Shown here: positions 4,677 to 61,121 of the stretch, piece after piece | How the letters are laid out: every line of letters begins with the position of its first letter | How positions within the stretch are numbered: position 1 is the stretch's first letter | From: Bacillota bacterium | GTDB lineage: Bacteria > Bacillota > SHA-98 > UBA4971 | NCBI GenBank assembly: GCA_012842395.1 | Contig: DUSX01000002.1 | Span: 248,001 to 312,000, forward strand | DNA: 64,000 nt | Direction: 5' to 3' | The notes under the pieces: model-generated | Databases searched by the model: none | Told to the model about the DNA's origin: nothing | The model's input: only the letters and a program-made list of their open reading frames with translations | Translations under genes and position numbers: made by a program

Positions 4677-5627
4677 TTATACATGAGCCGGGCCGCCCAC
4701 GAGCGCCTTGGCTGTGCGTTCGCGGCCCAGTCCTGTGTTCACCCCGCTCCTTTTGATGCCCGTGCGCTCGACGCTGAGCCCGTTGAGACTCCCTTCTGAG
4801 TCCGCGGCCGGGGCGGCCCCAGTGGTGATTTGTGGCCGCGCGCCGCCCCGGCCGATGCCACTATCCTGCAGTTCGCTTCGCAGTTCGGGGTTGAGAAACT
4901 TCACGAACATGCCCTTCATTCCCAGGGATTTTGTTCTGACGAGGCCCGCAGAGGACAGCTTCCGGAGAGCATTGACGACCACAGAACGCGTCATGCCCGC
5001 AGCGTCAGCGATCCTGCCGGCTACGACGAACCCTTGGTCGCCCGTGATGCTGTCAAGGATGGCGTGAACCGCCACGAGTTCGGAGTAGGAGAGGCTCCGG
5101 ATCGCGGACCTCGCAACACGCTGGTTTGTCTCGCGATCCTCTTCGTCCCTCCGGCGTCTCGCCGCGAGCACTGCGCCGGAGGCCGCGGCAAGGGCTCCGA
5201 GCGCATCACGGTCATCTCGCGAGAGCTCGCGATCAAGCTGGACGACAAGCATGCCGAGGGCCTCGCCTAGCACCGTGATGGGCGCCGCCGCGTATGTGTG
5301 GCGATCGATCATCGCCGATACCGGTGTTTTGCGGGCTGCCACCGCCGCGCCGAGCGATGCTATCGTGCGAGGCGTGAGAGCGTCTCCGGAATGGTCCTCA
5401 TGCGCATTGGGGCCTGGGGAATCCGCCAGGGCTTTCGCGGCGGAAGCGCCGGCCGCCATGCCGGCCGCCACGGAGTGCCCGGTGACGTGCCCTTTGGCGT
5501 TCACCAGGTAAACACGGGCACCGCCAAGACAACGGCTCACGACGGAGCACACCCCGTCGCCGATCGGGCCTGGAAAGTCATGCTGGAGGATCTCCGTCAT
5601 AGCCTTCAGGGTTTGCCGGCACTTCAC
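4677..5627 (-). CDS. codY: GTP-sensing global regulator CodY with a C-terminal extension
   Basis: Residues 1-155 form the GAF-like effector domain, which in CodY senses branched-chain amino acids. A linker helix (DEEDRETNQRVARSAIRSL) follows, then the conserved winged helix-turn-helix at about 180-250: LSYSELVAVHAIL, IADAAGMTRSVVVNALRKL and SLGMKGMFVKFLN closely follow known CodY sequences. The start is GTG 5627 with GGGAGG about 8 bases upstream. Known CodY proteins are about 260 residues; this one has roughly 60 extra residues after the DNA-binding domain, rich in Gly, Ser, Ala and Arg and probably disordered. CodY represses amino-acid synthesis, transport and often exopolysaccharide genes during nutrient excess, all of which occur in this window. 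It is not in the usual codY operon with xerC or hslUV. Confidence 0.9.
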   Translation of the reverse strand: MKCRQTLKAMTEILQHDFPGPIGDGVCSVVSRCLGGARVYLVNAKGHVTGHSVAAGMAAGASAAKALADSPGPNAHEDHSGDALTPRTIASLGAAVAARKTPVSAMIDRHTYAAAPITVLGEALGMLVVQLDRELSRDDRDALGALAAASGAVLAARRRRDEEDRETNQRVARSAIRSLSYSELVAVHAILDSITGDQGFVVAGRIADAAGMTRSVVVNALRKLSSAGLVRTKSLGMKGMFVKFLNPELRSELQDSGIGRGGARPQITTGAAPAADSEGSLNGLSVERTGIKRSGVNTGLGRERTAKALVGGPAHV

Positions 5628-7332: not shown

Positions 7333-7422
7333 TCCAGAGAATGACTCGCCGGTGAAGGAAGGACTTCGATTCTCATCGTCGAATCAGGTTCTAGACTTAG
7401 ATCCAAACGAGGGGGGATAGTG

Positions 7423-7950
7423 ATGAGGAAGGCGTTCCTATTGACGATCGCCGTGGCCATCGTGTTGGCCCTGGCCGGCGGCGTATCTGCGGCGGGCAAG
7501 ATCGGTGTGGGCTACTACTTCCACCAGAGTGACTCCGCCATGTCGCTCGCGGGCGAACTAGGTCTCTCTGACAGACTGGCATTCGGGTTCGATTATGTGG
7601 CGCAAGCCGGCGAAGAGCCCAGCAAGACCGAGCTATACGGCAAACTTGCGCTGAAGGACCTGGGCGTCACCTCGGTTGGAGCCTTCGGGGGTGTGAAGAT
7701 GACCGGGGCTTCCAATACGAGCTTCAAGGTCGGACTATACGGTGAGCAGCCGATCACGCCGCAGATCGACGCGTACGCCCGGGCGGGCGCGGCATTTGAG
7801 GGCAGCGCCAGCAGCGTATGGCTTGAGGCGCTCGGCGGCGTGAAAGTCAACGTGATGTCTCCGTTCTGGCTCGCGGGTGAGGCTCTTTACAACAGCCGGG
7901 AAGGTGCTGACGGCACTGCCTTCCGCGTGATCGTGGGAATGAACTTCTAG
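7423..7950 (+). CDS. Small secreted protein, probable outer-membrane beta-barrel
   Basis: This 175-residue protein starts with a clear signal peptide (MRKAFLLTIAVAIVLALAGGVSAAG, cut after the AxA near residue 24). The mature part is made of short alternating strands (KIGVGYYF, LAFGFDYVAQ, TELYGKLALK, FKVGLYGEQ, IDAYARAGAAFEG, FRVIVGMNF) and ends in phenylalanine, the pattern of small eight-stranded outer-membrane barrels. No specific family is recognised. GAGGGGGG (7409-7416) favours ATG 7423 over the GTG three bases earlier. The gene stands alone between the GH18 hydrolase and ald. If it is a barrel, the cell has an outer membrane. Confidence 0.6.
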   Translation: MRKAFLLTIAVAIVLALAGGVSAAGKIGVGYYFHQSDSAMSLAGELGLSDRLAFGFDYVAQAGEEPSKTELYGKLALKDLGVTSVGAFGGVKMTGASNTSFKVGLYGEQPITPQIDAYARAGAAFEGSASSVWLEALGGVKVNVMSPFWLAGEALYNSREGADGTAFRVIVGMNF

Positions 7951-20986: not shown

Positions 20987-22480
20987 ATGAAGAAAACAGT
21001 CGCTGCACTAGCCGTCATCATGGCACTCGCCATAACGGCGCCGGTGTGCGCGGCCCCCAACATCGACTTGGGCGGGTCTCTCGAGACCACGCTCCAGATT
21101 GCACCACAGAACGCGCAGGACATGGGGCTTAGCGCCACATCGGATCTTCGTCTCAACTTCTCCATGGAGCTGTCCGGCGGCCAGCAGATCCGGGCGTTCG
21201 TCGGATTTGAGCCTCTGGAATACGCTCCCTTCGGCCCGACAGCCGCTCCGAACCCGGGCTCGGACGACCTGGTGGGCGGCAACATGGACCAGAAGGGCCT
21301 GACGCCGGTGACGCTCGGCCAGCCGAATCTGACCATCGAGAAGGCCTACCTCGAGACCACAGGGCCGTTCTACACGGGCGGACAGGACATCACCACCAGG
21401 TTCGGAGACCTTGCCATTGACTACTCGCCTTACATCGCCGATGTCTCTGCAACCGACGGCGAGATCGAGGGCGCTCAGCTGAGCGGCGTGCAGGTCGGCC
21501 CGGTGGAACTCGGTGCGTTCTACGGCTGGGCGAATCGCGAGGTCGCGGAAAACCAGCAAGAGAGGTTCGCGGCGGCCGGCGTGTCGGCAAAAGCTGACAT
21601 CCAAGGCATCAGCCTTGCTGGTGCGGCTCTGAGGACGGGCAAGGACATAGCTCTTGCGGGGTCCGTTCAGCTTGCGCCCCTCCCGGGCCTCGACTTGGTC
21701 GGCGCGGCGGCGTGGGACGGCGCGAACGAGGCTTCGGCGGTAAAAGCCGAGGCGGGCATAGCCCAATTGCCCATGCTCCCTGGAGTCAGCGCGAAGCTAG
21801 GCTTCCGGAACTTCGATCCGAAGTTCAACCCGCTCTACCGCGATGACAGCCAGGACGAGGACGGCAACGACATCAACGTTGTGGACCTCAATGCGGGCAA
21901 GCGCGGCGTGAGCGGCCAGATCGCCACCACAATCAGCGGCGTGAAGCTGGTCGGGACCGCCGACTGGCACGAGCAGAGGAATGCCGATCGCCAGCTCGTT
22001 GGCGAGAGGAAGACCATCGGAGCCACCGCCGCCACCCAATACGCCGGCCTGGACATCGAGGCGGGCGTGACGAGCATGTGGTCTACGGTGAACGCGGACT
22101 ACACCATACTCGACCGGCAGGAGAAGGCCGACCCTGGGCAGGAGACCACCGTGACGCTTGGTCTCGGGTATGACATCCCGGTCGGTCCCGTCGTGGTGGA
22201 TGCCAGGTATGACCTGACGATGTCCACCGTGGATTCGACCGTCCACGAACTCGCGGCTTCCACAACCTTCGACACGCCCATGTTCTCGGGCGTCGGGTTG
22301 TCGGGCAACGCTAAGTGGGCGAACGGGGAGCTGGCGTACATCGGCCAAGCGCAGTACACGGCGCCCTGCGGCATCCAGTTCATCGGCAGCTACGCTAGCT
22401 ACGATGAGAATAACTTCGAGGACTTCACGACCAGGCCGAATGGGCTCTGCCTGACGGCCGGCATGAAGGTCGAGTTCTAA
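20987..22480 (+). CDS. Secreted porin-like outer-membrane beta-barrel protein
   Basis: This 497-residue protein has a clear signal peptide (MKKTVAALAVIMALAITAPVCAAP, cut near residue 23). The mature chain is dominated by amphipathic strands with alternating hydrophobic residues (LRLNFSMELSGGQQIRAFVGFE, VELGAFYGWANREV, AAAWDGANEASAVKAEAGIA) and ends in GMKVEF, a C-terminal Phe typical of barrels. No S-layer homology or cell-wall anchor was seen. Several acidic loops (DDSQDEDGNDIN) could bind calcium. It starts 9 bases after an AAGGGGG ribosome site and is flanked by terminators on both sides, so it is a single-gene unit, probably highly expressed. The family is not recognised; porin is inferred from architecture. 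Confidence 0.6.
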   Translation: MKKTVAALAVIMALAITAPVCAAPNIDLGGSLETTLQIAPQNAQDMGLSATSDLRLNFSMELSGGQQIRAFVGFEPLEYAPFGPTAAPNPGSDDLVGGNMDQKGLTPVTLGQPNLTIEKAYLETTGPFYTGGQDITTRFGDLAIDYSPYIADVSATDGEIEGAQLSGVQVGPVELGAFYGWANREVAENQQERFAAAGVSAKADIQGISLAGAALRTGKDIALAGSVQLAPLPGLDLVGAAAWDGANEASAVKAEAGIAQLPMLPGVSAKLGFRNFDPKFNPLYRDDSQDEDGNDINVVDLNAGKRGVSGQIATTISGVKLVGTADWHEQRNADRQLVGERKTIGATAATQYAGLDIEAGVTSMWSTVNADYTILDRQEKADPGQETTVTLGLGYDIPVGPVVVDARYDLTMSTVDSTVHELAASTTFDTPMFSGVGLSGNAKWANGELAYIGQAQYTAPCGIQFIGSYASYDENNFEDFTTRPNGLCLTAGMKVEF

Positions 22481-45889: not shown

Positions 45890-47149
45890 TCAACAGTCTT
45901 GCGGTTCTCGCGACGGGCCAGGCGCGCTGCGCCAGTAGTGCACGAGGAAGACTCCGAAGACGCTCACCATCAAGCCAAGCACGCCCGCTATCGTGACGTT
46001 GAGGAGCTTTCTCGGGCCCGAAGGCCTAGTGGGCAAAGTCGCCGGCGCGACGACGCCGACGGCGGCCTGGACTATCGCCCCTGCGTCCTGTCCCTCAAAG
46101 TTCTGAAGCTCGGCTGCGAGCTCAATCGACCGCGACTGAGCGCTGTTGAGGGCGCTTTCCAACGCTTCTTCGACGGCCCTTTGTCTCACCAGCTCGGCCT
46201 TTAATCTCGAGATGTCTGCCTCGAGCGTGGGTATCGCCTGCCGAGTCGCTTCGAGGCGCGCCTGGATGTCGGCGAGGTCGGCGCGTTTCCGTGAGACTTC
46301 TTCCAGCAAGGATATGTACGCAGGATTGACCTGGGTCATTGTATATGCTTCACTTGCAGGCGGTTGCTGGGCGCCGCCCGCGCTGGATGACCAGCCGAGC
46401 TGGATCGTGTGGGGAATTGCGGCGAGCTGTTGCTCAAGCACCTTGAGAGCCTCTGTTGCGGCTCGCGCTTCACTGGTGAGTTGGTCAGACTCCCACCGGT
46501 AGTTCGCAAGCGCCGCGGTCTTCGCGTTGATCTCTTCTGTGATGAGGTCGCTTCCGCCGGATTCCTGCACGAGCTTCTCGACCTTCTCGACCTCCTCTGA
46601 GGCAACCGCCTTTTGGCCTGCCAATGCCTCAGAGATCGCCTGCCTGCGCGAGGTGAGCCGGGAAGCTACGAGTTCAGACAAGTAGTCCTTGTATGACTCG
46701 ATGACGGCCTTCGCAAGGGCCTGTGCGTTCTCCGGAACGGAGTCCCTTACCGTGACCTCGACCAGCCGGTCTCCCTTTGCGGCATCTCCCACGACCCTGG
46801 CCGTGACTCTGTCCGCGAGCGCCGCTGCACTCAAGGAACCGTCCCTCAGTGATCGGGCAGCCCTCTCAAGAACGGCCGGATCCTGCAGAAGCCGCATCTG
46901 TGCCTGTGGCGTGCCTCCAAGGATGCCGGCAATGACGGGGTCTTTGAGACTATCCTGCACCTCCTGAGGAAGGCTCACTGTGAACATCACGCTGGACTCA
47001 TACACCGGGTCCAATACGAACAAGCTTACAAGCCCGGCCGAAATCATGGCGCAGACGGTCACCGCGAGAATGAGCCATTTCCCACGCCATAAGATCTCGA
47101 TGTACTGTCTCAGGTCTATTTCGTCCAGATACGCGTTATCTTGCTCCAT
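45890..47149 (-). CDS. Wzz/chain-length-determinant-type polysaccharide co-polymerase, second copy
   Basis: The 419-residue protein has the Wzz plan: a short N-terminal segment (DLRQYIEILWRGKWLILAVTVCAMISAGLVSLF, first membrane helix), a long extracytoplasmic coiled-coil region (about 80-370, with paired EEVEKVEKLVQES and EEVSRKRADLADIQARLE helices), then GPRKLLNVTIAGVLGLMVSVFGVFLVHYW (second helix). It has no attached kinase domain. It regulates the chain length of the polymer assembled at this locus. The frame is open further upstream, to 47263, but the family start is MEQDNAYLDEIDLRQY at ATG 47149; the ribosome site is weak. It is the last gene of the minus-strand block after the barrel gene. 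Confidence 0.85.
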   Translation of the reverse strand: MEQDNAYLDEIDLRQYIEILWRGKWLILAVTVCAMISAGLVSLFVLDPVYESSVMFTVSLPQEVQDSLKDPVIAGILGGTPQAQMRLLQDPAVLERAARSLRDGSLSAAALADRVTARVVGDAAKGDRLVEVTVRDSVPENAQALAKAVIESYKDYLSELVASRLTSRRQAISEALAGQKAVASEEVEKVEKLVQESGGSDLITEEINAKTAALANYRWESDQLTSEARAATEALKVLEQQLAAIPHTIQLGWSSSAGGAQQPPASEAYTMTQVNPAYISLLEEVSRKRADLADIQARLEATRQAIPTLEADISRLKAELVRQRAVEEALESALNSAQSRSIELAAELQNFEGQDAGAIVQAAVGVVAPATLPTRPSGPRKLLNVTIAGVLGLMVSVFGVFLVHYWRSAPGPSREPQDC

Positions 47150-47384
47150 GCCTTGTGCCACACTCGATTTCGCCCGCGCATGAGGCGAGAGCGACGTAGC
47201 TGTCTCTCCTTTCTTGCGGAGTCTGGGAATCCGAAGACTGCGGGAGCACTCCCACCCAACCACCAGTTTCGCGCTACGGGGCTGAATTCCTTCCTCCGCA
47301 GCGCAACCGTCTGTAATCAGTTCTTGCTCCCGCGCTCACGGATTCTGGGGCGTACGCCTGCCGGGATTCACAGGGCGAGAGCTG

Positions 47385-48497
47385 TCAGAACGCGACGCGC
47401 CCTGTGACCATCACCCTGCTTGCCACGGCGAGCGTATCATCGAAGGCGAGGGCGACGTCCGTCGATACCCGGCCCATCCGGAGCCCGACTCCCGCTGTTG
47501 CGCTAGGGCCTCGGCTCGGAGACAAATAGAGGTATCCTGTGCCTGTGAACCCGGGCATGACCTCGAATTGAGCCCCCAAGCCAACGCGCCACGGCGCTGC
47601 ATATGGGACGACACCCGCCGTTCTCAACAGATCTCCCCCGCCTCCGGATGACTCGAATGAGGCTCTGAGGGCACGGAGTGTGTTAAGTGACGGCCTCATT
47701 TCCAGGGACATCGCGAAGCAAGGCGAAACGCCTTCATCTCGGCTCCATGCTTGAGTCGTCCCGTCCGAGGTAATCGAGCCTCGCCACGCCATCACACCCG
47801 CCACGCTCATCAACCCGGCCTCTGCAGCGATTTCCCTGGCAGGGTTCGCAGCGACCCTGGCTCTCAGCGCGAGGTCTACAGAGTAGCCGCGCCCACGTGC
47901 CAGAAGGGTTGTGCCCTCGGTTGACTGGCTGGAGAGGTGGTCCTCGAGCGACCCATCCAGCAGATGGACCCTTGCCCCCAAGGAGAGACTCCCCACGGGG
48001 AGTCCTGCCTCCACGACCCAGGCATTGACCGTCCGGATCTCGCCGGCCCGTTCTTCATCCTCGGACCATCCTAGCGCCAAACCCGTCTCGGTCCTGATGA
48101 GTCCCAGTCTCAGCGCGCCGGCACCGGGCACGATGAGGTCTCTCATGCCCCATGCACGACTCACTCCAGCGAGGAACCGGTAGTCGCCAGCGGGCTCTCC
48201 ACGTATCAGCTCGAGACCGCGAGACCACGATATTCCTTTCGTTCCCTCTGGGACCCAGGCGCCCGCCGAAAGAACAAGCGTTCCGGGGGTGTCGGCCCCT
48301 GAGAGCTGACCAGGCCACACGGCCGGACCGGGCCATACGGCCACTGAACCACCGGCCAGTTCCGGCGCGCTGAGGGGTAAATACCACGCGCCCGTCAGGG
48401 TTTCCGTGAGCAACTCGCCAGGAACCGGCGCGGTCGCTGCGTGGCACGGTGTGGACCCTAGAGCTAGGATCATCATGAGCACGACGAGCCGTCGCAC
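47385..48497 (-). CDS. Secreted beta-rich protein, probable outer-membrane barrel in the export locus
   Basis: AAAGGAG lies 7 bases before GTG 48497, giving a 370-residue protein with a signal peptide (MRRLVVLMMILALGSTPCHAATAP). The mature part is Gly- and aromatic-rich with repeated amphipathic strands: LVLSAGAWVPEG, YRFLAGVSRAWGM, LRLGLIRTETGLALGW, GYSVDLALRARVAAN and WRVGLGAQFEVMPGFTGTGYLYL. It ends with VMVTGRVAF, a C-terminal Phe. No enzyme motif is seen. No family is recognised. It lies between the Wzi-like protein and the second Wzz, so it may be an outer-membrane part of polysaccharide export or attachment. Confidence 0.6.
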   Translation of the reverse strand: MRRLVVLMMILALGSTPCHAATAPVPGELLTETLTGAWYLPLSAPELAGGSVAVWPGPAVWPGQLSGADTPGTLVLSAGAWVPEGTKGISWSRGLELIRGEPAGDYRFLAGVSRAWGMRDLIVPGAGALRLGLIRTETGLALGWSEDEERAGEIRTVNAWVVEAGLPVGSLSLGARVHLLDGSLEDHLSSQSTEGTTLLARGRGYSVDLALRARVAANPAREIAAEAGLMSVAGVMAWRGSITSDGTTQAWSRDEGVSPCFAMSLEMRPSLNTLRALRASFESSGGGGDLLRTAGVVPYAAPWRVGLGAQFEVMPGFTGTGYLYLSPSRGPSATAGVGLRMGRVSTDVALAFDDTLAVASRVMVTGRVAF

Positions 48498-48591
48498 GCT
48501 CTCACTCCTTTCGGCGCCTCCGCTCCTGCGCCCGATACGCTGCCTCCCGGGCGCCTGCACTGCGCTCTCGTCCGTCAGAGCCATGGCCTCG

Positions 48592-49923
48592 TCATTGACC
48601 CCAGACGAACTTGAGCGATAAGCCGACGCTTGCCTCAAACGTCTCTGCTGAGGGCACATGACCTGCGTTCCGCACCTTTTCGACGATCGTCGCGAACTCG
48701 AGGGCGCAGTGGGGAGCGCCAGGGACAGCGCAGAGGGCCGAGCCCAACTGGCCCGTGGCCCACACTCCAAGGCTGGCGCGGGTCTCGACAGTGCCTGCGA
48801 GGAACTCGCGGCTTACGCCCTCCGAGGGGCTCCATGCGTGTCCGACGATGCCTTCACCGTGGCGCTCGTATCCGAGCCTGCCCGTCACCTCAACGTCTCG
48901 GCACGGCCCGAACCCGATGGTGTCATCTAGGTCGACTCTACGACTCACGAAGAGATAAAGAGCGTCCGCATCCGGGCCGAGCGGGTGCCCGATAAGCTTG
49001 CCGTCTGCGACTACGTAGGTGTTCTCCGGGTTCTTGTGGGAATACACATAGTTGTTGATCCTCACATATTCCACGGCCACACGGCACGGGTTGGTCTGAC
49101 GAGGCACGTCCACCTGAATGCCTGCAAGTCCGCCGACCATGTACGGGACCCGGCCCCGCGCGCTTGGCGCCCACGGGAAGTCGTCCGCCATGAACTCTCC
49201 GTATAGCTTGACACCACGAGTCACGTCAAGACTCGCGTCGAGCGCCGCTAGGACGTTTGACCACCAGTCCTGGGTCCTCTCATCCTGCATGCTCAGGTGT
49301 TGGGCCAAGAAGTACGGGCATCCAGGAATGAGGTGGTAGGGCTGAAGGTGAAAGCCCGAAGAAACGGAGCAGGCTTCCGATATACCCACCTCGGCGCTGC
49401 TGCCAAGACGTCCCACGATGCGGTGTGCGAAGAGCCATTTGCCTTCCGACGCGTCTCGCGCCGCGGCGAGTTGCTCATAGAGAAGGCGACCGTCTGAGAC
49501 CGATAAGGATACCCCATCGAGCGGGGTTGAGCCGGAGAGAAGCAACGACCCCGAGACCCCTGGGCCCCATTTCCAGGTCTGACGTCCTATTGTGATGGTG
49601 CTGCCAGGCAGCCACCTGTCTAGCGCCCCCGCAATGGTGGCGCTTACCTTGTCAAGCGAAAGATGCAGTTCATGGGCGGTGGAATCCCATTCCGCCCCAA
49701 CATCGAGCGAACACGATTGAAAGAGAGCTGGCAGGGTCGCAGCGGCGCACGCCTCCAAGCTGAACAAACCTAGAGCCGCAGCAACGAGGGCTGCGAGGAC
49801 ATGCGGGGTGGCCGCCCCAATTACGCGCGGATGCCAGCGCTCCCTCGGCTGCCAAAGGCACCCTTTTTCTTTGTGTAGACCCTTTCGGCCGCTCTTAGGG
49901 CTTCGTTCGACCCTTGCGTCCAT
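48592..49923 (-). CDS. Capsule-assembly Wzi-family outer-membrane protein
   Basis: The 443-residue protein has an N-terminal hydrophobic export segment (about 38-62), preceded by an unusually long charged stretch. Family blocks follow in order: WKWGPGVSGSLLLSGSTPLDGVSL, LFAHRIVGRLG, VGISEACSVSS, VKLYGEFMADDFPW (YGE..DD motif), VAVEYVRINNYVYSHKNPENTYVV and GKLIGHPLGPDADALYLFVSRRV. This is the pattern of Wzi-type outer-membrane lectin barrels that hold capsule at the surface. Such proteins are known from diderms; finding one in a CodY-bearing genome supports an outer membrane. GAGGATGG precedes ATG 49923. Confidence 0.7.
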   Translation of the reverse strand: MDARVERSPKSGRKGLHKEKGCLWQPRERWHPRVIGAATPHVLAALVAAALGLFSLEACAAATLPALFQSCSLDVGAEWDSTAHELHLSLDKVSATIAGALDRWLPGSTITIGRQTWKWGPGVSGSLLLSGSTPLDGVSLSVSDGRLLYEQLAAARDASEGKWLFAHRIVGRLGSSAEVGISEACSVSSGFHLQPYHLIPGCPYFLAQHLSMQDERTQDWWSNVLAALDASLDVTRGVKLYGEFMADDFPWAPSARGRVPYMVGGLAGIQVDVPRQTNPCRVAVEYVRINNYVYSHKNPENTYVVADGKLIGHPLGPDADALYLFVSRRVDLDDTIGFGPCRDVEVTGRLGYERHGEGIVGHAWSPSEGVSREFLAGTVETRASLGVWATGQLGSALCAVPGAPHCALEFATIVEKVRNAGHVPSAETFEASVGLSLKFVWGQ

Positions 49924-49967: not shown

Positions 49968-50188
49968 CTGAGCATGGCGCAACGAGTTCTCGTCTCTCAT
50001 CTTGAGGGCGCGATGGTCACCGGTCCTTGGCACGACGGGACGCTCGGAATTCGGCCGGCTTACGCGCCAGATCCCGACGAGGCGCGCAGCGAGCACGCCG
50101 TCCCCAGAGGGTAAGGCCGATAGTATTATTAGGCAGGACCCCCGCCCCCGTACCGAAAGGCAGCGCGAACTCCCGGCGGTATACCTAG
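49968..50188 (+). repeat. Dispersed palindromic repeat, copy E
   Basis: It begins CTGAGCATGGCGCAAC, then TCGTCTCTCATCTTGAGGGCG. The core is CTCGGAATTCGGCCGG, and it ends GCAGCGCGAACTCC then GGCGGTATACCTAG. The last bases contain the stop codon of the minus-strand cpsB gene (CTA at 50185-50187). It separates the Wzi-like gene from cpsB. Confidence 0.75.
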
Positions 50189-51006
50189 CCAAACAGGAAC
50201 CACTTTCTCCGCACGAACTTTTCCGGGCTTTCTAGCTGCACCGTCTCCGCGCGAACGACCGCACGTGGGATGTCGCGCACGGCACGCAAGGCGGCCTCGC
50301 GTCCCACGAGCCTGGACGCGGCCGCAAATGCTAGGTCAAGCCTGCAGGGCCGATCCTCGGGTGAGTGTCCATCGCTTGCTATGAGATGGGCAAGCCCGTG
50401 TCTAAGAAGGGTTTCCGCCGCCTGCCGGACGGACCTGCCGAACGCGCCGGTGAGGCTTCCGGCGTTCACTTGGCCCATGGCGCCTGCCCGCACCAGCCGG
50501 TACATACGGTTCGGGTCGGTCGCGACCTCGGAGCACCGTTCGGGGTGAGCGATCACCGGGACATAGCCCGCGCTGGATAGGTCGAACACGGCTTTCTCGG
50601 CGTACGTGGGAATCTGCTGAAACGGCAGCTCAACGAGGACGTACTTTCCAGCATCCCCTATGGTCAGTGCGTCGCCGTGTCTTAGCAGTTCCAGGACCCG
50701 AGGGTGCATCGCGATCTCCATCCCCGGCAAGACCTTCACGGACAAGCCCGAGGACTCGAACACGGCGTTGAGAGCGGCAACCCTGCTTCGGATGGTGCTG
50801 GCCACACCCTGCCACCGGCGCCCCGCGAAATCGGCATGAGGCGTTGCCACCATGAGGACGCTGCCGCGCTCCTGCGCTGCCTTTGCCATGACGATGGCCT
50901 CATTCAGGTTCCTGGCACCGTCGTCCACCCCTGGGAGGATGTGTGTATGGATGTCGACGGCTCCCGGAACAGCGCTGTCACGGCTCAACCGCATCTCACC
51001 CGCCAC
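50185..51006 (-). CDS. cpsB: PHP-type protein-tyrosine phosphatase CpsB/YwqE
   Basis: This 273-residue PHP-fold metallophosphatase has VDIHTHILPGVDDGA (metal-binding HxH), VATPHADFAG, GMEIAMHP, VIAHPERC and HLIASDGHSP, all metal ligands of the CpsB/YwqE family. It dephosphorylates the tyrosine cluster of the partner kinase encoded by the upstream overlapping gene (CpsD), cycling polysaccharide synthesis on and off. It overlaps cpsD by 11 bases, so the pair is translated together. The stop codon lies in the terminal CTAG of repeat copy E, and the family C-terminus (KFVRRKWFLFG) looks complete. Confidence 0.93.
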   Translation of the reverse strand: MAGEMRLSRDSAVPGAVDIHTHILPGVDDGARNLNEAIVMAKAAQERGSVLMVATPHADFAGRRWQGVASTIRSRVAALNAVFESSGLSVKVLPGMEIAMHPRVLELLRHGDALTIGDAGKYVLVELPFQQIPTYAEKAVFDLSSAGYVPVIAHPERCSEVATDPNRMYRLVRAGAMGQVNAGSLTGAFGRSVRQAAETLLRHGLAHLIASDGHSPEDRPCRLDLAFAAASRLVGREAALRAVRDIPRAVVRAETVQLESPEKFVRRKWFLFG

Positions 51007-51751
51007 CGCTGGCTTCTCCGTTCGAGACCGCCGCGGCCTCCTTGCTGGAGAGCGCGGAGCCGGAATCGCCCTTGTAATAGTAGTAATAGTAATAGCCGTA
51101 CCCTCGACCTGGCTTTACCTGATTCAGCACCACCCCGAGAAGTCTCGAATGCGCGCCAGAAAGCAGCTGTTTAGTCCTCTTGGCGGCGTCTCTCGACGTC
51201 ACTCCGATCCTGATGGTCAGAAGCACGCCATCGAGCCGGGGCGCGAGGAGTATGGCGTCAGTCACTGCCATCACCGGCGGCGCGTCGTATATCACAAAAT
51301 CTGCCTCCGACGCGAACGCGTCGATGAGTGCGCCCATTGTGCTTGAGCCAAGGAGCTCCGCGGGGTTCGGAGGAATGGGCCCGCTCGTGACCAACCGCAA
51401 ACCGGGAACAAACGTGTCCTGGTAGATGTCAGGCACCACCCCTTTGACAAGGGCTGTCGTGAGCCCCACGGCGTTTGGAAGCGAGAAAAGCTCATGCTGA
51501 ACGGGCTTGCGCATGTCAGCGTCGACGAGCACCACCTGTTTTCCGCCCTGAGCTATCGAGATCGCAAGATTGGCTGCTACCGTGCTCTTGCCCTCGGACG
51601 GACCAGGGCTCGTTATCAGGAGAGAACGCACAGGTCTGTCAGGTGACACGAATTCAAGGTTCGTTCGAAAAGTTCGAAATGCCTCTGACACGGGAGACCT
51701 CGGGTCATGGTAGACTATGAGGCTCCTGTGGCGGCTCCTAGACTGTGGCAA
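50996..51751 (-). CDS. cpsD: Bacterial tyrosine kinase CpsD/CapB-type
   Basis: The 251-residue kinase has EAFRTFRTNLEF (BY-kinase oligomerisation motif), Walker A SPGPSEGKSTVAANLA, Walker A' VVLVDADMRKP, Walker B DFVIYDAPPVMAVTDA and a C-terminal tyrosine cluster YGYYYYYYYK, followed by a short Ser/Gly tail. The cluster is the autophosphorylation site read by CpsB. It needs a Wzz-type membrane activator, supplied by one of the two separate Wzz proteins. TTG 51751 has AGGAGGG 10 bases upstream. This split kinase/activator arrangement is the Firmicute type, in contrast to single-chain Wzc of Proteobacteria. Confidence 0.93.
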   Translation of the reverse strand: MPQSRSRHRSLIVYHDPRSPVSEAFRTFRTNLEFVSPDRPVRSLLITSPGPSEGKSTVAANLAISIAQGGKQVVLVDADMRKPVQHELFSLPNAVGLTTALVKGVVPDIYQDTFVPGLRLVTSGPIPPNPAELLGSSTMGALIDAFASEADFVIYDAPPVMAVTDAILLAPRLDGVLLTIRIGVTSRDAAKRTKQLLSGAHSRLLGVVLNQVKPGRGYGYYYYYYYKGDSGSALSSKEAAAVSNGEASGGG

Positions 51752-51812: not shown

Positions 51813-52042
51813 CCAAGCAGGACACAACAAGTTGGCGTTGCCTCTCAGTTGCGTGCGTCCCGCCCCAGATCATTGCCCTCACCCTACGGGGACGGAGCGT
51901 TCGCGGCGCCCAGCTCGAATCCGGACGGTGCTCAGGCCATGTTCGGCCCATGCTCGGCCGCCGCGCCGTGCCTGCGCCGACAACCCTTGCGACCCTCAAG
52001 AAAAGAGACGAATACCGCGCCTCCCTATTGCGTCACGCTTAG
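51813..52042 (-). repeat. Dispersed palindromic repeat, copy D
   Basis: It begins CCAAGCAGGACACAAC, then AAGTTGGCGTTGC. The centre is CAGCTCGAATCCGGAC, and CCTCAAGAAAAGAGACGAA matches copy C. It ends ATTGCGTCACGCTTAG. The terminal CTTAG (52038-52042) contains the TAA stop of the minus-strand wzz gene. It lies between wzz and cpsD. Confidence 0.75.
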
Positions 52043-53496
52043 GACGCTGCGGGTTCGCCCCCTCCCAATGGCTCGCCTTTCGGATGCTTGCGACGGAACC
52101 TCCGCATATCGGGGACAACCCCGAGCACGGGAAGCTCAAGGAGCCGTTCGACCTCCTCCTGGGTTTTGAATGACGTGTCCACGTACTCCATGACGAACGC
52201 GACACCTACTGCGACGAAGAGCCCGAGAAACGCGGCGATAGCCGTGTTGAGCAGCTTCCTCGGCTTGATGGGCTTCTCGGGAACCACCGCGCTATCTATC
52301 ACGTAGACGTCCGACACTTTCATGGCCTCTGTGATCCGCATTTCCTCGTACTTCGTGCGCAGCATCACGTAGATTTCTTCATCTACACGCTGCTCTCTCA
52401 TGAGGCGTGCGACGTCCATTTCTTTCTCCGGGATCGCCGCCAGTTTCGCCTCGGCGTCAAGAAGCATTCCGCGGAGCGCGGCTTGTTTCGCTTCGAGCCC
52501 CACGATGCGAGATTCGTTCTCCACTAGTTGCGTGCGCAGTGCCTGATAAATGGGGTTGAGGGAGCTAGTCTGCGAGCCGACCACGTTCTCCACTTCTTGG
52601 GCGAGTTTGGCCTTCACATCAGCGATCTGTGCCTTCAGGCTGATGACAGCCGGGTGGTTATCGGTGTATCGCTCGCGTGCTCCTGCTAGCTCGGTCTCAA
52701 GGTCCGACAGCCGGATCTTGTATTGCTGCACGAGCGGGTTATTCACAAGTGTCGTCGACGTGACGAGCGTCGGATCCGCCGACCTAAGGTTGCGCTCTAT
52801 CTCCTGCCTCTCCGCCATGGCCGCGTTGAGCTCTACCTGGGCCGCGGCGAGCTCTTTCTCGATCTCGGCGATCTTGTCTATCTGAGCTTTCGTTTCTTCT
52901 GTCGGCTCCACAACCATGCTGGACTTCTTGTATTGAAGGAGGGCATCCTCGGCCTTCCGGAGCGCTTGTTCGGAGATGGAAAGCTGCTGCGCGACAAACT
53001 CCCTTGCCGCACGCGCCGATTCCTGGTTCATCTTCTGGCTGTGTTCCCTGAAGACCTCGATCAGGGCATTCAGAAACGCGGCCGACCTCTCAGCATTGTC
53101 TGATTCCACGGAGAGCTTTGCCACGTTCGTTCCCTGGACTTGCTGGACCGATAGGCTCTTCTGCCACAGGGCGACGTCCTCGGGGGACACGGGAGTGTAC
53201 CAGCCCAACCGCGTTAGGACTGACTCCACAATGGTTCGGCTCTTAAGGAATTCCATGTAGTTTCTGATGTCATTTCCCGAAGTGCCCATCATCTCCTCCA
53301 TGAACGGCATCGTGCCCACCGCGCTATCAGTTCTCACCATTATCGTCGCAGTGGCTTGATAGATCTCGGTCATCCCGGCGCTGACCACGTACGCGGTCAG
53401 CGCACTGGTGAGAACAAGCGCAAGTATGAGCCATTTCCTGCGGGCGAGCACCCTCAGGTATTCGAGGAGATCAACTTCCTGCTCAAGCTGATCCAT
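52039..53496 (-). CDS. Wzz/GNVR-domain polysaccharide co-polymerase (CpsC-like), first copy
   Basis: The 485-residue protein has an N-terminal Wzz domain (DLLEYLRVLARRKWLILALVLTSALTAYVV, first helix), a long coiled-coil ectodomain (about 150-400; REFVAQQLSISEQALRKAEDALLQYKK, QIDKIAEIEKELAAAQVELNAAMAERQEI) with a GNVR-type segment (EKEMDVARLMREQRVDEEIYVMLRTKYEE), then PIKPRKLLNTAIAAFLGLFVAVGVAFVMEY (second helix) and a cytoplasmic tail of about 45 residues. The tail (TSFKTQEEVERLLELPVLGVVPDM) is the part that activates CpsD-type kinases. It is followed by cpsD after repeat copy D. Its stop codon is within the repeat end. Confidence 0.92.
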   Translation of the reverse strand: MDQLEQEVDLLEYLRVLARRKWLILALVLTSALTAYVVSAGMTEIYQATATIMVRTDSAVGTMPFMEEMMGTSGNDIRNYMEFLKSRTIVESVLTRLGWYTPVSPEDVALWQKSLSVQQVQGTNVAKLSVESDNAERSAAFLNALIEVFREHSQKMNQESARAAREFVAQQLSISEQALRKAEDALLQYKKSSMVVEPTEETKAQIDKIAEIEKELAAAQVELNAAMAERQEIERNLRSADPTLVTSTTLVNNPLVQQYKIRLSDLETELAGARERYTDNHPAVISLKAQIADVKAKLAQEVENVVGSQTSSLNPIYQALRTQLVENESRIVGLEAKQAALRGMLLDAEAKLAAIPEKEMDVARLMREQRVDEEIYVMLRTKYEEMRITEAMKVSDVYVIDSAVVPEKPIKPRKLLNTAIAAFLGLFVAVGVAFVMEYVDTSFKTQEEVERLLELPVLGVVPDMRRFRRKHPKGEPLGGGEPAAS

Positions 53497-53533: not shown

Positions 53534-56500
53534 CTATGGTGCGACAATGTCCTTGATAAGCTTCAGGCCGGATAGGAACGACAGCACTTTTTCCCAATCT
53601 ATCTTGGACGTGGCCGGCACGTAAACGATGTCGCCGCCCAACACGGGCGGGTTATCCTCAGCCTTGCCGGCGAAAAACAGGTCGTCCCGGCCGAGCACGA
53701 TTTCCTCACCTGCCGCGACCTGGCCGTTTCTGAAGATGCACACAGACTCAAGCGCCGCGCGCTTGGTAGGGCCGCCTGCAAGGGCCAGGGCGTCCATGAG
53801 CCGAGCGCTTTCGCGGATCGTGTAAACGCCGGGTCTGGCGACCTCGCCCACTACCACCACCTCGCGCCGGGCCTTGGGAACGAAGATGGTGTCCTGGTCG
53901 GATACGATCCGGTTGGAAGCGGGGTCTGAGCCTTTTAGAATCTTGTCCGCGTCGAGGAGGTACACCTGAGCGCCGTGTTCAGCTGACGCGGACGTGCCCG
54001 TGCCGTTCGTATGGGTTGTGAGCGTTACTTGCGAGCGGTCTGCGTCGTCAGTGAGCCCTCCCGCTACCGCCAAGGCGTCGGCAACGGAGCTCCCTGCCTT
54101 CAAATAGTAAAGGCCGGGCTTCGCCACCTCGCCGACGACATGTACTGCGATGGACCTTGGCACGTAAACGACTTCGCCCCCACGTAGAACCCACGAGGAA
54201 GCGTCCGCAGCCTCAGTCGGATGTCCCACGTCGAACTCGACGGCGTGCGGCGACCCATCTGCCCCCTGGGTCGTGACCCTCACTGCGCGGTCGTCGCCCA
54301 GTTGGGTGACTCCTCCCGCCATCGCCAGAACCTCGAGAAGAGTCGTGCCCTCGCGTATCGGATATACTCCGGGTCTTGCCACCTCACCGAGCACTGAAAC
54401 CTGCCGCACGTTCAACGGGACGAACACTGTATCACCGTGATGAACGATGATGTCCCGATCGAGGCTCTCAACGTCCACTTCAAGCACTTCGCCGGCGCCG
54501 TCTTGGGTCCGCCTCGTGAGCCTGATGGCGCTGTCGTCGCCCGTGTCGGTGACACCCCCTGCCATTGCGAGCACTTCGAGCAACGTCGTCCCGTCGCGTA
54601 TCTTGTATACCCCGGGCTTCATCACCTGGCCCATGACCGAGACCTCTCTCACGAGCTCGGGCACGAAGATGATGTCGCCGTCCCGAAGCGAGATGTTCTG
54701 ATCCTCAGCGCCCGCCATTATAGACCGCATGTCGACGGTGTGTACCCTCGCGGTCTCGCCCTGTCGTGTGAGGGTGACTGCTGACGGGTCGCCGTCCTCG
54801 GCGACTCCCCCCGCCCGCGAGATGGCGTCCATGAACCGAGCCGTGGCTCGGAGGCTGTAAGTCCCCGGCGCTTTCACTTTCCCGAGGATCATGACTGAGA
54901 TCGCCTTAGGGACATAAAGGACGTCGCCGTTTCTGACAATGTAGTTTTCATCGCCCCCGCCGGCGGCTTGGAGCCTGTCCAGGTCGACCGTGCGGCGCAC
55001 CTCGCCGTCAGGGCCCTTACTGGTAAGGACCGCGCTTGTTGCATCACCCTCCGGCCGCACGCCGCCCGCGAGCGCCAGCACGTCGAGAACGCGCGTTTCC
55101 TTGTGAATCTTGTACGTGCCCGGGCGGTCCACTTCTCCGAGGACTGACACCTCCTGGATGAGTTCTGGGATGGAGATGATGTCCTGGTCTTGAAGAACGA
55201 CGTTGTCCTCAGGCTTGGCACCGTTGAGTATCCCTTCGAGGTCGAGGACTCTGGCCGTCACGGATGCCGCGGCACTCGCGTTCTTTGCGGACGTGCGCGT
55301 GAGGGAAACCTGCGACGAGTCCGCGACGTCCGTGGGCCCACCAGCCTTAGCGACGGCGTCGACCAGGCGGCTGCCTGCGCGCAATCGGTAAGTGCCGGGG
55401 GATTTCACCTGCCCGAGCACCTGCACCTCAATGGCTCTCGGCACATAAACCATGTCGCCGGGTTCCAGCTTGAAGGCGCTGCCCATGATGATGCGCGAGT
55501 CACCGCCTTGGCTCGCGATGTTGCCGGAATCGCTCAAGTCTATCTCGAATACCTGGGTCGTTCCGCCCTTGCTCCGGCTCACTCGGACGCAAGTGATGTC
55601 GCCATCGAGCCCGGGCCCTCCCGCCGCCGCGATGGCGTCGAAGACTTTGGTGTCGGGGCCGACGGGGTACACACCAGGCTTTTCAACTTCGCCCAGCACG
55701 GAGATGGTACGCACCGCCTCCGGGACGTGGATTATGTCGCCGTCCGCGAGAAGGAGGTTGTCCCTGCTGTCTGGAGCGGCGACAGCAGCCCTGAGGTCCA
55801 CGGTCCGCGCGCCGTCCTGTCGCGACACCGAGACATTGCTGGGGTCGCCCTCGGGAAGCACGTCTCCAGCTCTCGCGATGGCATCGGCGAGGCGGGCTCC
55901 ACGCTCCAGGTAGTACGTGCCCGGTGCCCGGACCATTCCCATGACTTTGACTGCGAGCGCCCTGGGCACGAAGACCGTGTCGCCGTCGGCGAGAACGCAT
56001 GCTGAGGGTTCTGCGGTGCCTGCAAGCACGGCGCGCAAGTCGACGGTGGTCGGCTCCGCGCCGGGGCCGGGCGCGGCCCCCGAAGGCGTCGCAAGCCCCG
56101 CCCTGTGCGTGACCTTGATACAAGTCACGTCAGCCTCAGCTGTGTCTCCTCCGGCCGCCGCGATCACATCCAGAATGTTGGGTGGCTCGGGAAAGCTGAA
56201 CGTTCCGGGGGAGCGGACGCTTCCCATGACGTTTACGCGGACGAGCCGCGACTCGCGGACCGACACTGTGACCCTGGGATTCTTGAGATAATAGGAGAGT
56301 TTCTCGGTGAGGACCTCCTGGAGCCCTGGCACGGTCAACCCAGCCGCCTGGACCTCTTCTATGAGGCTTGTGAACGATATCTTCCCGTCCTCCCTGACCC
56401 TTACCATCGCGGACAGGTCTTCATAACCCCATACGGCTATATCGAGCAGGTCGCCGGCGGAGATGATGTAGCCCGCTGGCGACTCACGAGCGGCCGACGA

Positions 56501-56641
56501 GGCGACCTGGGCAGATGTGGTCTGCACGAACGCCGCGAGAAGCACGCAGATGCAGACAAGGAGCGCGGGAACACCTGTTGGCAGCGCGGGCGATACGAAA
56601 ACAGAACGCAACCGCTTCATCATATCGTGTGGACGTGTCAC
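53534..56641 (-). CDS. Polysaccharide export protein with about ten SLBB repeats (Wza-like)
   Basis: This 1035-residue secreted protein has a signal peptide (about 20-45) without lipobox, a polysaccharide-export (Poly_export) domain (YIISAGDLLDIAVWGYEDLSAMVRVREDGKISF, LTEKLSYYLKNPRVTVSV; about 55-140), and then ten SLBB blocks. Each has a strand like VSVLGEVxxPGVYxI, a helix like LLEVLAMAGGVT and a closing DGDxIFVP strand. The blocks begin near residues 145, 235, 320, 405, 490, 575, 660, 745, 835 and 935. Wza has about two SLBB domains and no Wza-type C-terminal helix is seen here. It should form the export channel or a long periplasmic conduit. The start may be GTG 56641 or the ATGs at 56623 and 56620. 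Confidence 0.9.
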   Translation of the reverse strand: MTRPHDMMKRLRSVFVSPALPTGVPALLVCICVLLAAFVQTTSAQVASSAARESPAGYIISAGDLLDIAVWGYEDLSAMVRVREDGKISFTSLIEEVQAAGLTVPGLQEVLTEKLSYYLKNPRVTVSVRESRLVRVNVMGSVRSPGTFSFPEPPNILDVIAAAGGDTAEADVTCIKVTHRAGLATPSGAAPGPGAEPTTVDLRAVLAGTAEPSACVLADGDTVFVPRALAVKVMGMVRAPGTYYLERGARLADAIARAGDVLPEGDPSNVSVSRQDGARTVDLRAAVAAPDSRDNLLLADGDIIHVPEAVRTISVLGEVEKPGVYPVGPDTKVFDAIAAAGGPGLDGDITCVRVSRSKGGTTQVFEIDLSDSGNIASQGGDSRIIMGSAFKLEPGDMVYVPRAIEVQVLGQVKSPGTYRLRAGSRLVDAVAKAGGPTDVADSSQVSLTRTSAKNASAAASVTARVLDLEGILNGAKPEDNVVLQDQDIISIPELIQEVSVLGEVDRPGTYKIHKETRVLDVLALAGGVRPEGDATSAVLTSKGPDGEVRRTVDLDRLQAAGGGDENYIVRNGDVLYVPKAISVMILGKVKAPGTYSLRATARFMDAISRAGGVAEDGDPSAVTLTRQGETARVHTVDMRSIMAGAEDQNISLRDGDIIFVPELVREVSVMGQVMKPGVYKIRDGTTLLEVLAMAGGVTDTGDDSAIRLTRRTQDGAGEVLEVDVESLDRDIIVHHGDTVFVPLNVRQVSVLGEVARPGVYPIREGTTLLEVLAMAGGVTQLGDDRAVRVTTQGADGSPHAVEFDVGHPTEAADASSWVLRGGEVVYVPRSIAVHVVGEVAKPGLYYLKAGSSVADALAVAGGLTDDADRSQVTLTTHTNGTGTSASAEHGAQVYLLDADKILKGSDPASNRIVSDQDTIFVPKARREVVVVGEVARPGVYTIRESARLMDALALAGGPTKRAALESVCIFRNGQVAAGEEIVLGRDDLFFAGKAEDNPPVLGGDIVYVPATSKIDWEKVLSFLSGLKLIKDIVAP

Positions 56642-61011: not shown

Positions 61012-61121
61012 CTCTTATCAAGAGCGGCGGAGGGACTGGCCCGATGAAGCCCGGCAACCGGCGGCGGACTCGCCTGCACGGTGCCAATTCCTGCAGAACT
61101 TTCCGTTCTGGGAGATGAGAG
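61012..61121 (+). ncRNA. SAM-I (S-box) riboswitch
   Basis: The leader carries the S-box core in order: CTCTTATCAAGAGCGG, GGAGGGACTGGCCCGATGAA, GCCCGGCAACCGG and the closing GATGAGAG. P1 pairs CTCTTATC (61012-61019) with GATGAGAG (61114-61121), eight pairs with one wobble. GCGGCGG...CGCCTGC and CAGAACTTTCCGTTCTG form internal stems. High S-adenosylmethionine stabilises P1 and favours the terminator that follows, so metK is turned off when its product is abundant. Confidence 0.97.

Follow-up and report, generated by a model that had tools for sequence, protein, structure and literature searches.

Genes for a Wzi-Wza polysaccharide exporter and an outer-membrane gene cluster in an apparently diderm Firmicute

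The window, a stretch of 64,000 nucleotides from a Bacillota genome (contig DUSX01000002.1), contains an operon-like block, all on one strand, in which a Wzi-family gene and a second barrel-like gene lie together with genes for a Wza-like exporter, two Wzz proteins, CpsD and CpsB. The features considered here are listed with their positions in the window.

45890-47263, minus strand: second Wzz-family protein (PF02706, E 1.3e-14)
47385-48584, minus strand: barrel-like exported protein downstream of Wzi, 399 aa, ending in Phe and confined to one genus (beta score, AlphaFold model, homologue count)
48592-49923, minus strand: Wzi-family outer-membrane beta-barrel, putative polysaccharide surface-attachment protein, 443 aa (PF14052, AlphaFold fold)
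50185-51006, minus strand: CpsB/CapC PHP-type tyrosine phosphatase (PF19567, E 2.2e-50)
50996-51751, minus strand: CpsD-type BY-kinase with the tyrosine-rich tail YYYYYYY, a split Wzc (TIGR01007, E 3e-53, over cut-off)
52039-53496, minus strand: Wzz/GNVR chain-length or kinase-adaptor protein (PF02706, E 6.8e-14; PF13807, E 4.7e-20)
53534-56641, minus strand: Wza/EpsE-type polysaccharide export protein, 1035 aa (PF02563, E 9.9e-20; TIGR03028 EpsE, 456 bits)
4677-5627, minus strand: divergent CodY-family regulator (PF08222, CodY HTH, E 5.3e-19; NF003170, E 6.6e-42)
7420-7950, plus strand: small possible outer-membrane barrel, 176 aa (OMP_b-brl, under cut-off)
20987-22480, plus strand: porin-like outer-membrane protein with a terminal Phe, 497 aa (homologues; rank 10 of 123 in the beta score)
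61012-61121, plus strand: SAM-I riboswitch (RF00162, 94.3 bits)

The initial annotation, made from the letters alone, had placed a Wzi-family protein in this export locus. PF14052 (Caps_assemb_Wzi) matched 48592-49923 with 38.9 bits against a cut-off of 30.1 (E 7e-10), and an AlphaFold model computed from an alignment of 14 Wzi sequences was strand-rich, with a pLDDT of 78.5. When this model was compared with the PDB by VIA-align, the top match was E. coli Wzi (2ynk; Z 23.0, rmsd 3.6, 292 residues aligned), and the runner-up, AlgE, scored four units lower (Z 19.1). Foldseek ranked AlgE first and did not return 2ynk among its top 50 PDB matches, but its superpositions were poor (rmsd mostly about 10, TM below 0.55). 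Since the second aligner ranked 2ynk first, the AlgE identity was dropped. Neither a profile search of the PDB sequences with the Wzi alignment nor a search of the NCBIfam models with the protein gave a match. On the evidence of the family profile and the predicted barrel fold, the protein is a Wzi, as annotated.

The open reading frame directly downstream had been called a second barrel-like protein. A mechanical search placed its start at a TTG codon at position 48770. We preferred the ATG at 48584, because it lies 7 bases past the Wzi stop codon and because, in three further genomes of the genus, the homologues have comparable starts and agree with the protein over most of its length. The protein ends in SRVMVTGRVAF, matched no Pfam or NCBIfam model, and was found in 4 of 61 genomes, its own included, all of one genus. 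Its AlphaFold model, for which the alignment held only four sequences, was strand-rich with low confidence (pLDDT 47.5). The gene itself is real, and its product is a candidate barrel backed by a beta score and a low-confidence model.

This beta score was a home-made measure of alternating hydrophobicity, computed over 123 open reading frames. The second barrel-like protein ranked 4, the 497-aa porin-like protein 10, Wzi 13 and the 176-aa protein 23, and five proteins encoded on another contig of the genome (C10), used as positives, ranked 2, 3, 5, 6 and 12. The score is crude: it gave high ranks to beta proteins of the periplasm, namely TamB, one TonB-C protein and one LptD_N-domain protein, and placed one SLH-barrel protein only at 44, so we used it as supporting evidence only. 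Two further porin-like proteins had been proposed. Both, at 7420-7950 and 20987-22480, are real open reading frames with signal-peptide-like N-terminal stretches and a terminal Phe, and no NCBIfam model matched either. For the longer one the proposal gains from its rank and from its distribution: a homologue is present in 22 of the 61 relatives, and all but one of these, 21 in number, are BamA-positive; the exception, G010, is a member of the same family with an LptD homologue, and no BamA was found in it. The shorter one reached 14.7 bits with OMP_b-brl against a cut-off of 28.7 (E 0.034), below the threshold of the barrel family, and its rank is not convincing. Barrel prediction on the four candidates came to a predicted barrel for Wzi, the low-confidence model of its neighbor and the simple score for all; three of the four are supported by sequence or predicted fold. 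A 643-aa exported protein (L015:12741-14672), which has no Pfam match, ends in Phe and ranks 15 of 123, is a further outer-membrane candidate.

Several features of the window are of Firmicute type. The SAM-I riboswitch and the split CpsB/CpsD system are present as annotated. The CodY assignment holds at the level of the family, through the HTH domain, but not at that of the equivalog, whose model gave 143.6 bits, short of its cut-off of 255; as this alignment nevertheless ran over residues 25-255, we regard the protein as a divergent CodY. Both sugar-binding proteins of the window are real, and inspection of their N-termini revealed no consensus lipobox, in agreement with what had been noted from the sequence.

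E. coli group 1 capsules are assembled by Wza, Wzb, Wzc and Wzi. The locus resembles that system in the Wzi barrel fold, the Wza-type exporter, the BY-kinase/phosphatase pair and the Wzz domains, all encoded by adjacent genes. It differs in having a split kinase and, as its phosphatase, a PHP-type CpsB, both in Firmicute style, and in that a second barrel-like protein follows Wzi. The Wza-like protein differs as well: E. coli Wza is far shorter than 1035 aa, whereas the protein encoded at 53534-56641 contains about ten SLBB stretches and shows no lipobox at its N-terminus. Its size, its repeats and the apparent lack of a lipobox would be in keeping with a lineage that has few lipoproteins in its outer membrane. 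The same order of export genes, judged from the starts and lengths of the reading frames, was found in a sister genome (G003). RNA folding of the gap between CpsB and Wzi gave nothing unusual (z 0.41).

The initial annotation had proposed an outer membrane in this CodY-bearing lineage and had named BamA, LptD, TamB, the Lpx genes and SLH-Omp anchors as the genes to look for. The genome (3.14 Mb, 98.3% complete, 61 contigs) carries genes of each of these kinds on contig C10, with LptD and SLH-barrel matches that are partly under cut-off. Genes on C10 were called with a simple script and assigned by Pfam; those discussed individually are as follows.

C10:6225-13991: TamB (E 6.9e-44)
C10:14982-15896: the single Omp85/BamA of the whole genome (PF01103, E 2.5e-55)
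C10:16046-16654: OmpH/Skp (E 1.4e-9)
C10:22736-25057 (L003:2736-5057): LptD candidate, 774 aa, inside the outer-membrane cluster (PDB and NCBIfam matches)
C10:45957-48746: SLH-OmpM-like protein (SLH, E 1.6e-12; weak C-terminal OMP_b-brl, E 6.8e-5, under cut-off)
C10:55615-57585 (L013:15615-17582): second LptD-like protein, with DUF3769

BamA scored 302.8 bits with TIGR03303 against a cut-off of 297.15 and contains three POTRA stretches; its presence means that the genome has the kind of assembly gene whose absence would have spoken against an outer membrane. The cluster reads TamB, BamA, OmpH/Skp, LpxD, LptF/G, an LptD_N-domain protein, LptA, an ABC ATPase, LpxC, FabZ, LpxA, LpxI and LpxB, followed by an ABC exporter at the MsbA position. 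Further along come one more LptD_N-domain protein, an LptB-like ATPase together with the second LptF/G, and three SLH proteins. The two further SLH matches lie at 49398 and 52914, and two of the three SLH proteins have weak C-terminal barrel matches. Among the features by which diderm, LPS-bearing Firmicutes are recognized, the genome has BamA with TamB and Skp next to it, the lipid A enzymes LpxA, B, C, D and I, the transport proteins LptA, LptF/G and LptD, and SLH-OmpM anchors. The 774-aa LptD candidate matched LptD in the PDB (8h1r, E 3.8e-6) and fell under the cut-off of the LptD models (NF003358, E 4.7e-12). Homologues of this in-cluster protein are kept through most of the class; the count of LptD in 25 of 61 genomes takes in partial matches to the OstA domain alone. 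The second LptD-like protein carries DUF3769, a domain that occurs in cyanobacterial LptD. In the accessible part of the literature on LptD, our search gave no report of two LptD-like proteins in one genome.

Other genes of the genome deserve mention. A SpoIVB-type peptidase gene (C10:3875-6061) adjoins TamB, and two Spo0A C-terminal domains are encoded at C34:265289-265600 and C18:212641-212955; these matches point to probable sporulation control in a diderm. Genes for ExbB, ExbD and a TonB C-terminal protein occur on another contig (L017:7298-12821), with a cohesin-domain gene and an SLH gene beside them.

We also analyzed the distribution of Wzi relative to that of BamA. Among 61 relatives, Wzi homologues were present in 14 and BamA in 26, and all 14 Wzi carriers had BamA (p 4e-7). 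Among 299 genomes of the phylum, PF14052 was matched in 29 (20 over cut-off) and Omp85 in 77 (all over cut-off except G254), and 28 of the 29 PF14052 carriers also had Omp85 (p 1e-17). Both p-values treat the genomes as independent and, given their kinship, overstate the significance. The lone exception, G187, has Wzi and neither Omp85 nor LpxC. In composition its Wzi contig (G187:C10, L169) stands apart from four of the five contigs with which it was compared (r 0.70-0.75, versus 0.88-0.93 among those four), which suggests that it is a contaminant or a transferred island; the fifth, only 7 kb long, is also a compositional outlier.

We consider it very likely that this Firmicute is a diderm, apparently with LPS, and that Wzi and its barrel-like neighbor form the outer-membrane end of a surface-polysaccharide exporter. 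The outer membrane that had been proposed from the window is supported by BamA and by the Lpx, Lpt, TamB and SLH genes of C10, by the co-occurrence of Wzi with BamA, and by the ExbB, ExbD and TonB C-terminal genes. It might be argued that the genome is that of a monoderm Firmicute into whose bin Gram-negative contigs have strayed, the outer-membrane cluster being foreign: the assembly is in 61 contigs, and the oddly composed Wzi contig of G187 is an example from another genome of the phylum. However, the window, C10, C18 and C34 are alike in tetranucleotide composition (r 0.86-0.92) and in GC content (0.62-0.65), BamA recurs in 12 of the 13 genomes of the family, this one included, and in all four further genomes of the class, and the porin and Wzi genes share a contig with CodY and the SAM riboswitch. 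Composition and the recurrence of BamA through family and class led us to reject contamination, which we judge extremely improbable.

It is equally hard to believe that the flagged proteins are surface or cell-wall beta proteins of a monoderm, CpsABCD-type capsule system. The Firmicute-type split of CpsB and CpsD would fit such a system, but the match of the Wzi fold to 2ynk, the Wza-type exporter in the same block and the co-occurrence of Wzi with BamA all speak against it. A different question is whether an outer membrane could be present without true LPS, the lipid A genes serving another glycolipid. LpxK, the Kdo transferase WaaA and the late acyltransferases were absent among the C10 genes scanned, as this would predict. 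That absence concerns only those genes, and LpxA, B, C, D and I, LptA, two LptF/G and LptD are present; we regard an outer membrane without LPS as unlikely.

With a diderm, apparently LPS-bearing cell as the preferred reading, we infer by analogy an export route that draws on the observed genes, domains and co-occurrence. After synthesis in the cytoplasm, the polymer would be flipped into the periplasm, its length being set by the Wzz proteins together with the CpsD kinase and the CpsB phosphatase. The Wza-like channel would then carry it across the periplasm and the outer membrane, where the Wzi barrel, again by analogy, would hold it on the cell surface. The second barrel-like protein might be a lineage-specific accessory of the Wza-Wzi machine, although this is a guess. 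BamA would fold all of these barrels into the outer membrane, and the SLH-OmpM proteins would tie that membrane to the wall.

Firmicutes are usually regarded as single-membrane bacteria, but diderm members are established in print for Negativicutes, Halanaerobiales and Limnochordia, and the genome is therefore a further example rather than a surprise. According to the available sections of Antunes et al. 2016 (PMC5007114), the diderm Negativicutes and Halanaerobiales have an outer-membrane locus of similar logic. Shared with it are a single BamA with TamB and Skp as neighbors, FabZ adjoining LpxC, LpxI in the cluster, SLH-OmpM within the locus, an MsbA-like ABC transporter and a mixture of monoderm and diderm features. 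By contrast, those sections describe a single LptF/G and no LptD homologue in either group, whereas here LptF/G is duplicated and an LptD homologue lies in the cluster; in Negativicutes, lptD is located outside it, as far as the consulted part of a 2017 paper indicates (PMC5491611). The accessible text of PMC11456536 reports, citing Taib et al. 2020, that each of the 46 uncultivated Limnochordia genomes has the cluster. It also reports that cultured Limnochordia show two membranes by electron microscopy. Our organism resembles these as a deep diderm Firmicute with outer-membrane markers. The orthology of Firmicute BamA to proteobacterial BamA is disputed in the section of PMC8871954 available to us. 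The least documented part is the exporter that combines Wzi and Wza with a Firmicute-style CpsB/CpsD: among the papers listed by a literature search none was evidently on this combination in a diderm Firmicute, and a search within the text of one of them, PMC11784454, gave nothing on it. No literature was found on UBA6811, a close relative.

It is possible, though less likely than not, that the genome and its relatives represent a class-level lineage of diderm Firmicutes beyond Negativicutes, Halanaerobiales and Limnochordia. Such a lineage would combine a complete Lpt bridge, in which two LptD-like barrels occur (one of LptD type in the cluster, one with DUF3769), with a non-lipoprotein Wza, a hybrid Wza-Wzi/CpsB-CpsD exporter and Spo0A-type sporulation control. 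If so, its envelope would serve well as a proxy for that of the ancestral Firmicute. The tight link between Wzi and BamA across 299 genomes makes Wzi usable as an outer-membrane marker in the phylum. The genome adds a well-sampled case in favor of two membranes at the origin of the Firmicutes. It also shows an outer-membrane exporter, with Wza and Wzi, joined to a Firmicute-style CpsB/CpsD switch.
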